NCBI GenBank assembly: GCA_016649785.1
Contig: JAENXB010000003.1
Span: 1 to 32,155, forward strand
Direction: 5' to 3'
From: Flavobacteriaceae bacterium
Lineage (GTDB): Bacteria; Bacteroidota; Bacteroidia; Flavobacteriales; Flavobacteriaceae
Length of the DNA stretch: 32,155 nt
Numbering within the stretch: position 1 is the first letter of the stretch; each line of letters begins with the position of its first letter. Below the pieces are notes generated by a model. The model worked only from the letters and a program-made list of their open reading frames with translations, had not been told where the DNA came from and ran no database searches. This document shows, one piece after another, positions 23,486 through 25,825 of this stretch. The position numbers were made by a program, and so were the translations under genes.

Positions 23486-24769
23486 TTAATTCTCTTTTTC
23501 CATTTGGCGTTGAATTTTTTCAATAGCATTCTCAATGGATTTTTCAGGTTCAATTATATTGTTATCTCCCCAAAAATCCGGGTCTGAAAAACCAGAAACA
23601 TCATCAACCATGACTACTGAAGGGCTAATGAGGTTTTTTTCCTTTCTTGATTTCCCGTCCGGATCAAGTTCCCAATCGGTTACGGCCATTTCGCCATTTA
23701 TAGTGTAACGGGAGTTAAATAATTTATTTTTCCAGTTTACCACAAATTCCAATTGGGCATTCCCATAACCATAAAACCATTTTCCATTGCTCTCACGGTA
23801 ATCTATCCTGTAATCTACGTTAACAGGGTATACTCTTGCGCCGGCAGGTTTTTTCTTCACAAATAAATTGGAAGCAGCATTCCTGTTTTCCACATTGAGC
23901 TTGTATGTAGCTTTAATCAATGTATGAGTTTCCGCATCCACAAACAATTTTCCATAATACCATGGGTTTTTATGATCTTTCTCAACAAAATCAATAACGT
24001 ACAAATAGCGGTTATTGATCTTTGTAGGTTTATCAAAAGTGAATTCGTAGATGTCAATCTCGTCCTTGTTAAACAAAAACTCAGGATATTTCATCACATC
24101 CAGATAAATGGCGTTAAAAGGTCCACCGCGGAGTTTGAGTGCCAAAGTATCCAATCTTTCGTAATCGGTTTTTTTACGCGCTTTGATAATGGAAATTTCA
24201 TCTCTTTTTGAAGACGTATAGGGTTGTTTGTAAATTTTCACAACCGCTTCAGAAAGCGATACATTTCTTCTTCTTTTTTTTATGGTTTCCCTGTAAAAAG
24301 CTGTCATTTGGGTTTGGTCGTTGATGTAGTTATCGTCCCTTTTTTTAAGCATATCCAGGACCAGTCCTCTCGCATCTTTAGAACTAAAAATGCTGACCTC
24401 AGATAATTCTTCTACAGATTCTTCTAGTTCTATTCGTGTATTTTCCGTTTTGAAGTAATCAAGCGGAAGTATTTTACTTTGGTAACCCAGGTAAGAAACA
24501 GTTACCATTGCACCGGTAATATCTTCAGGAACTTTTAAAGAAAATTCGCCGTCTTTATTGGTAATGGTTGAAATATTTGTTCCGTTTACAGAGAGATAAG
24601 CCGATGCTATAGGATCTCCATTCTTACTGTCTACAACTTTTCCCTTGTATTCAACATAATCAACTTTTATTGAAATTGAGGCACCTAGACAGGGCGTCAT
24701 TCCCTGTAGAACCAGAAAAACAACGATTAAAACCTGTTTTATTTTAAAAGAATTTTTATTTGTTTTCAT
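23486..24769 (-). CDS. Secreted carboxypeptidase-like regulatory domain protein
   Basis: Signal peptide; YKGKVVDSKNGDPIASAYLSVNGTNISTITNKDGEFSLKVPE (CarboxypepD_reg-like); large C-terminal region. Confidence 0.82.
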   Translation of the reverse strand: MKTNKNSFKIKQVLIVVFLVLQGMTPCLGASISIKVDYVEYKGKVVDSKNGDPIASAYLSVNGTNISTITNKDGEFSLKVPEDITGAMVTVSYLGYQSKILPLDYFKTENTRIELEESVEELSEVSIFSSKDARGLVLDMLKKRDDNYINDQTQMTAFYRETIKKRRRNVSLSEAVVKIYKQPYTSSKRDEISIIKARKKTDYERLDTLALKLRGGPFNAIYLDVMKYPEFLFNKDEIDIYEFTFDKPTKINNRYLYVIDFVEKDHKNPWYYGKLFVDAETHTLIKATYKLNVENRNAASNLFVKKKPAGARVYPVNVDYRIDYRESNGKWFYGYGNAQLEFVVNWKNKLFNSRYTINGEMAVTDWELDPDGKSRKEKNLISPSVVMVDDVSGFSDPDFWGDNNIIEPEKSIENAIEKIQRQMEKEN

Positions 24770-24990
24770 ATGTAGATATTTATTGTTTTTTATTGGTCAT
24801 ATGTAATTTGCATATCTTCATTGGTGTTTGCATCGAGTTCCCGTTATGCTCATTTCATAACGAAATTTTTAAATTGGAAATAAACAAATCATTGCTCTAA
24901 GATATTGAATTTTAACAATATATAGATCGTTAACAAGTCGGAATATTACTTTTTTGGGTATAGTTTATTAAAAATGGTAATTTTGGTTTA

Positions 24991-25109
24991 AGGAAAAGGA
25001 AAGAGGAGAGTTGAAAAGTGAAGAGTGGAAAGTGGAAAATGGAAAGTGGAAAGTGGAAAATGGAAAGTTGAAAGTTGAAAGTTGAAAGTGGAAAGTTCAA
25101 AGCGGAAAG
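24991..25109. repeat. Degenerate heptanucleotide tandem array (TGGAAAG-type)
   Basis: Core 25026-25109 reads as 12 heptamers: TGGAAAG TGGAAAA TGGAAAG TGGAAAG TGGAAAA TGGAAAG TTGAAAG x3 TGGAAAG TTCAAAG CGGAAAG. The first six form 2 x 21 nt. The preceding 35 nt are in the same phase. Confidence 0.85.
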
Positions 25110-25214
25110 AGAATAGATTAACGTCGTAGAGAAACAGAAACACTTCGTTTTTGCAAAAAAAAACATTATTAACGATGTCGAAAAAGGGAATGCTTAAAAT
25201 AAAAAACCTAAATT

Positions 25215-25260
25215 TCTCAAATCTCAAATCTCAAATCTCAATACTAAGTACTCAATACTA
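25215..25260. repeat. Heptanucleotide tandem array (TCTCAAA-type)
   Basis: TCTCAAA x3, TCTCAAT, ACTAAGT, ACTCAAT, ACTA, all in 7-nt phase, ending 7 bp before the GNAT ATG. Confidence 0.75.
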
Positions 25261-25267
25261 GTTTAAT

Positions 25268-25825
25268 ATGCGATCATTGGTTTACACTACTTCAAAATCT
25301 GATAAGGATTTACTCGGGATCCTTGAATTACAACGAAAAAATCATTCGGCGAATCTATTAGCTGAAGAAATTTCTACACAGGGATTTATAACCGTAATTC
25401 ATAGTATTGAAAATTTGAGGAATTTAAACAACATTCAGCCACATATCATATGCAAACATAACGGAAAAGTTATTGCATACCTATTGGCGATGACTGCAAA
25501 ATCTCAAAATGAGATCCCTGTTCTTATTCCAATGTTCAAAATATTTGAAACACTGATATTCAAGGAAAAACCCATTTCAGAGTACAATTATGTTGTTGTT
25601 GGCCAAGTATGTGTAGATAAAAATTACAGGGGAATGGGGATTTTGGACAAATGTTATACAGAATATAAACTTCATTTAAAGGACAAATACGATTTTGCAA
25701 TAACCGAAATTTCAAACCGGAACTCGAGGTCTATAAAGGCACATAAGAGGATAGGATTTTCTGAAATTTATAAATACGCTTCAAAAAACCAGGAAGAATG
25801 GAGTGTGGTTGTTTTGGAATGGTAG
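25268..25825 (+). CDS. GNAT family N-acetyltransferase
   Basis: YVVVGQVCVDKNYRGMGILDKCYTEYK (motif A-like, RGMG) and EISNRNSRSIKAHKRIGFSEIYKY (motif B-like). Confidence 0.85.
   Translation: MRSLVYTTSKSDKDLLGILELQRKNHSANLLAEEISTQGFITVIHSIENLRNLNNIQPHIICKHNGKVIAYLLAMTAKSQNEIPVLIPMFKIFETLIFKEKPISEYNYVVVGQVCVDKNYRGMGILDKCYTEYKLHLKDKYDFAITEISNRNSRSIKAHKRIGFSEIYKYASKNQEEWSVVVLEW

Follow-up and report, generated by a model that had tools for sequence, protein, structure and literature searches.

The stretch of DNA analysed here (the window, 32,155 nt) comes from a Gillisia draft genome of 429 contigs that is 80.7% complete, and in the spacer ahead of a gene for a GNAT-family acetyltransferase it carries a strand-asymmetric array of heptamers. 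The locus raises the question of whether such an array is a local device acting on the neighbouring gene, or the product of a process that shapes intergenic DNA throughout the genome.

The array and its spacer

The spacer between the carboxypeptidase-like gene and the GNAT gene measures 498 bp, and the following features were recognised in and around it.

23486-24769, minus strand: divergent gene with a carboxypeptidase regulatory-like domain, on the other side of the spacer (Pfam PF13715, E 1.8e-14)
24953-24985, plus strand: Bacteroidetes-type promoter match TTTG-N21-TAATTTTG towards the GNAT gene (pattern scan)
24991-25109, plus strand (the AG strand): focal heptamer array (sequence, Tandem Repeats Finder, lag statistics)
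25207-25260, minus strand: second heptamer array, reading CTCAAAT/CTCAATA/CTAAGTA on the plus strand (period scan; Tandem Repeats Finder for the part 25215-25241)
25268-25825, plus strand: GNAT-family acetyltransferase gene, 3' of both arrays (Pfam PF00583, E 3.7e-5)

The initial annotation had counted about 17 in-phase heptamers, and direct counting gives 17 across 24991-25109, in a single phase and of the TGGAAAG family. Their order is AGGAAAA, GGAAAGA, GGAGAGT, TGAAAAG, TGAAGAG, TGGAAAG, TGGAAAA, TGGAAAG, TGGAAAG in the first half and TGGAAAA, TGGAAAG, three times TTGAAAG, TGGAAAG, TTCAAAG, CGGAAAG in the second, so that both the duplicated 21-nt block (TGGAAAG TGGAAAA TGGAAAG) and the TTGAAAG triplet described earlier are present. 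Tandem Repeats Finder, which had been proposed as a check, reported 24998-25109 as the top-scoring array of the whole window (period 7, 15.9 copies, 81% matches, score 124). Identity at lag 7 was 0.79, whereas 2000 composition-matched randomisations averaged 0.38 and never exceeded 0.60, i.e., the tandem 7-nt units exceed chance as expected of a heptanucleotide SSR. It remained at 0.76 at lags 14 and 21 and was still high at lag 28, from which past slippage or duplication in 7-nt steps, as suggested earlier, can be inferred. The exact copy number rests on the assembly, because some contigs of the draft begin about 150 bases or less from such arrays. A search against Rfam gave no match.

The claimed strand asymmetry was confirmed, with 83% purines on the plus strand, and it is also general among the tracts described below. 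The suggested triplex potential is poorly supported, because nearly every heptamer holds a pyrimidine (20 in all over the 119 nt, with no purine run longer than 20). The array lacks the long uninterrupted purine tract of a homopurine mirror repeat (H-DNA), and a triplex role is unlikely in view of its composition.

The array lies 159-277 bp upstream of the GNAT ATG (25268), a distance that had been given correctly, and the second array, opposite in sense, ends about 8 nt before this codon. The Bacteroidetes-type promoter pattern is matched three times in the window, where 1.24 matches are expected. The match at 24953-24985, TTTG-N21-TAATTTTG, ends 5 bp ahead of the focal array and would place the transcript start near 24990. 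The array is therefore more likely situated within the transcribed leader, and its proposed role as a spacer upstream of the GNAT promoter is doubtful. The predicted leader is less structured than all 200 shuffles (z +3.0), and the AG array probably makes up roughly the first 120 nt of a GNAT mRNA leader that is long and unstructured. Gain or loss of units would then mainly alter the length of this leader, and a dedicated switch role for the array is not favoured.

The same spacer contains a dispersed element of about 92 bp (24770-24861), which immediately precedes the start codon of the carboxypeptidase-like gene and is bounded by TTTCAT on either side. At least 12 copies with 80-96% identity were present in the own-genome sequence examined, L093 carries three copies in tandem, and genomes G001, G002 and G003 hold copies at about 90% identity. 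The copies seem to adjoin start codons (ATGAAA), and the element, which had no match in Rfam, could represent a leader element that is mobile or else a conserved leader.

A genome-wide class of heptamer tracts

The focal array has 18 other matches in its own draft genome and the second array has 24 further ones, some of them overlapping. When 940 contiguous kb from the congener G013 were scanned for periodicity, the scan found 22 arrays of period 7, nine of period 14 and four of period 21, and at most two arrays of any other period from 2 to 29. The near restriction to periods 7, 14 and 21 is in line with growth in 7-nt steps. All 22 period-7 arrays were intergenic, and the tracts thus share the intergenic, genome-wide distribution of the heptanucleotide SSR class. 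At least 75% purine on one strand was found in 45% of tracts vs 0.8% of random segments. Array density varies among species, with few arrays in G003 and G011.

Within 12 nt of a coding edge lie 54 of 100 arrays, compared with about 35 expected from random placement in spacers, thus closeness to edges is only moderately enriched. Convergent spacers make up 7 of the 18 array-bearing spacers of G013 vs about 14% of intergenic bases (p about 0.008), and because of this over-representation a promoter-specific role was rejected as a general rule. Within this genome-wide class the focal array is an ordinary member.

The members of the class share a vocabulary. In the unbiased 940 kb, 27 pairs of exact repeated heptamers were common to distinct loci vs 3.4 +/- 1.8 when positions were permuted within each array, with or without dinucleotide weighting. 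Independent slippage from random seeds would give less sharing than this, so that an added constraint, or copying between loci, is required. Read in the CT orientation, the units follow roughly the pattern W-C-T-H-W-N-N, with an AG anchor on the other strand, and the dinucleotide with the highest conservation is CT 1.85 times as often as expected. In spacers of the own genome, on contigs partly chosen for containing arrays, CT recurs at lag 7 with a ratio of 2.4, and of 1.6 once recognisable arrays are masked. Outside the own genome, observed and scrambled control heptamers gave similar numbers of matches, one control, AATCATC, being itself common elsewhere; it matches often in another family of the order (G028, G043, G089, G112). 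Other genera may have favoured heptamers of their own.

Some array loci also carry a recurrent core word, which is absent from the focal locus. The word AGCCACGAATGCACGAATA recurs in own spacers (L106 at 4446, 7476 and 7600; L100 at 11094; L108 at 1121), in most cases at the distal side of CT heptamer tracts, and in L106 a unit of about 124 bp composed of AGCCACGAATGCACGAATA and degenerate heptamers is tandemly duplicated. A CCCGCAGATTTCGCAGATT-like word family with a period near 10 was seen beside heptamer tracts in the L035 and G013 L087 spacers.

Orientation towards gene edges

Of 96 cases within 100 nt of a coding sequence, 83 have the AG-rich strand running away from it 5'-to-3', both at starts and at stops; put differently, the CT strand has its 3' end towards the gene. 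These counts rest on simple ORF calling, arrays of the same spacer are not independent, and some of the own contigs were chosen for their arrays. The polarity holds at distances of up to 12 nt (54/62), 13-40 nt (12/14) and 41-100 nt (17/20) and is lost beyond 100 nt (10/23), which fits a filter acting near coding edges. It is seen in co-directional (54/70), convergent (24/29) and divergent spacers (15/20). The focal array itself, more than 100 nt from both genes, belongs to the zone without polarity.

For the class as a whole, 15 start edges have an array in CT sense within 12 nt vs three with an array in AG sense. For the unbiased G013 set, significance is reached on the stop side (14:3) but not when starts are taken alone (5:3). 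Arrays often begin at the stop codon, e.g., after a GroEL gene of another genus, where TAA is followed by AATAGATTTGAGATGTGAG. When neighbouring arrays of opposite sense occupy one spacer, the order is AG and then CT in 16 of 17 cases; the present window is among them, its AG array being followed by a CT array near the GNAT start. The convergent spacer G013:756326-756456 and its orthologue in G011 read stop, AG heptamers, terminator-like hairpin, CT heptamers, stop, an architecture kept between the two species with differing heptamers. A reading of AG and CT arrays as arms of a hairpin was set aside, because on inspection the motifs of one spacer often differ. In the open-access literature we found no paper stating a polarity rule for starts and stops jointly.

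Turnover between species

In seven congeners, each represented by one genome, the flanking genes are still adjacent and the spacer, 142-235 bp vs 498 bp here, contains neither array. The focal array therefore turns over between species, and it is in this sense, variation from one species to another, that the proposed variable spacer holds. Among syntenic spacers of six Gillisia genomes, a list in which some pairs are counted twice, several have an array in a single species only. The clearest case is the gap after the gene for elongation factor P, which measures 145 bp here, mostly AG heptamers followed by CT heptamers, whereas its median among 28 relatives from other genera is 6 bp. A 6-bp gap between linked genes can thus become 145 bp of new DNA.

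Origin of the arrays

We hypothesize that the arrays are intergenic heptamer DNA grown by slippage, the orientation of which is filtered near gene edges, and we give this best explanation about an even chance of being correct. The focal array would be one copy of the degenerate heptamer tracts that fill Gillisia intergenic DNA. Tracts would be born and lengthened in 7-nt steps by strand slippage and block duplication, they would be tolerated only where no reading frame is hit, and near genes one orientation would be retained more often. After a stop codon, AG-sense tracts could supply extra stops in all frames, as many units carry TAG or TGA, and before a start codon CT-sense tracts could offer fewer spurious start or ribosome-binding sequences. 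The AG unit TGGAAAG is itself without a stop codon, which counts against the stop-codon basis of the filter. The excess of shared vocabulary and the weak start side of the G013 set likewise count against the explanation.

A somewhat improbable alternative, and the one that we rank next, is that a protein recognises the anchor every 7 nt in RNA or DNA, e.g., in CT-rich leaders ahead of start codons, and that the arrays are kept by selection as its binding sites. The conserved anchor with freer positions around it, the shared vocabulary and the closeness of arrays to start and stop codons are all compatible with this idea, and translational regulators were proposed by MacGregor for the TAACTGA repeats of Beggiatoa (PMC4679880). 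However, the same families are found at starts and, in reverse orientation, at stops, therefore a function of RNA leaders alone does not cover them, and the rapid turnover between congeners also argues against maintained sites.

The orientation could instead reflect strand-specific synthesis, in which a slipping polymerase extends 3' ends at breaks in the spacer, adds AG heptamers outward from each side and the ends are then joined. We consider this unlikely, even though it accounts at once for the AG strand leaving the edge 5'-to-3' at starts and stops, for the AG-CT order (16:1) and for the new DNA that fills the elongation factor P gap from stop to start, and even though a similar geometry has been reported for Xanthomonas (PMC4692102) and Beggiatoa (PMC4679880). 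The disappearance of polarity beyond 100 nt from genes (10/23) and the presence of terminators and the recurrent core word between both arrays in some spacers speak against this candidate process. Compared with this bolder end extension, which the data do not need, slippage with a filter at gene edges is best supported.

Regulation of the GNAT gene by heptamer copy number, which would tune or switch expression as in the hmw genes of Haemophilus influenzae, is in our view just as unlikely as end extension. The position of the array 159-277 bp upstream of the gene and directly after a promoter match would suit such a role, for which there is a precedent in the effect of 7-bp repeats on HMW expression (PMC2424069, PMC10127715). 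Nevertheless, like arrays adjoin many unrelated genes, they are over-represented in convergent spacers, which offer no promoter to tune, and at the GNAT locus they are absent in seven congeners; moreover, the repeat is imperfect, which usually slows slippage. Finally, that the arrays are ends of a dispersed composite element inserting into spacers is very improbable, as AGCCACGAATGCACGAATA does flank some arrays on one side, but most arrays, including the focal one, have no shared flank, two arrays of one spacer often differ in motif on inspection, and no transposase or target duplication was seen with arrays.

Comparison with known systems

Among the longer simple repeats of many bacteria, heptamers are described as the most abundant, and slippage has been put forward as their source (PMC4679880). 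The long SSRs surveyed by Mrazek in 2007, as cited there, resemble the Gillisia tracts in the over-representation of period 7, the intergenic position and the proposed slippage, but that survey, as summarised in the citing paper, concerned perfect-type repeats, whereas the Gillisia tracts are degenerate, oriented and have a shared vocabulary. The tandem heptamers upstream of hmw1A and hmw2A of Haemophilus influenzae are alike in placement, but they belong to specific adhesin promoters with effects on expression (PMC2424069, PMC10127715), whereas the Gillisia arrays are genome-wide and imperfect.

The (GGGANTN)n arrays of Xanthomonas are also degenerate heptamers with conserved positions, G-rich in this case, and they are intergenic with a similar geometry (PMC4692102). 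Their mean distance is 28 nt to the ORF located 5' of the G strand vs 160 nt to the next one; they are about 90% intergenic and genome-wide, are found at about 70 convergent pairs per genome, and their length is not conserved between species (PMC4692102). Xanthomonas differs in having a single, G-quadruplex-capable motif per genome (PMC4692102), whereas Gillisia has many motifs with a shorter AG/CT anchor and no G-runs.

The TAACTGA arrays of Beggiatoaceae, cyanobacteria and some Bacteroidetes, including Gramella and Aequorivita, are likewise intergenic and have a CT-containing unit pointing at start codons (PMC4679880). In Beggiatoa the sets most often end 1 nt ahead of the start codon, and one Flexibacter set lies reversed immediately after a stop, but the sets of Microcystis do not follow the orientation (PMC4679880). 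The data from Beggiatoa, Xanthomonas and Flexibacter thus agree with the Gillisia geometry, and those from Microcystis do not. A CT strand directed towards a nearby start is a property of the Gillisia class and, within the window, of the second array and not of the focal one. The TAACTGA arrays have one fixed unit, whereas the units here are TGGAAAG/TTGAAAG and CTCAAAT/CTCAATA and fall outside that family.

It is conceivable, though we regard it as rather far-fetched, that one strand-specific process, i.e., slippage-prone extension of 3' ends at spacer breaks followed by joining, gives Gillisia, Xanthomonas and Beggiatoa their common geometry. If true, the arrays would represent a bacterial counterpart of end healing and a continual source of new intergenic DNA. 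Heptamer repeats between genes are on record from scattered bacteria, and the number 7 has no accepted cause. The heptamer class with its vocabulary and orientation, rather than the focal array, is the interesting part of our results: a single Gillisia genome contains many motifs that share an anchor and are oriented relative to gene edges, which makes it testable whether such repeats originate from ordinary slippage filtered by selection or from strand-specific synthesis.
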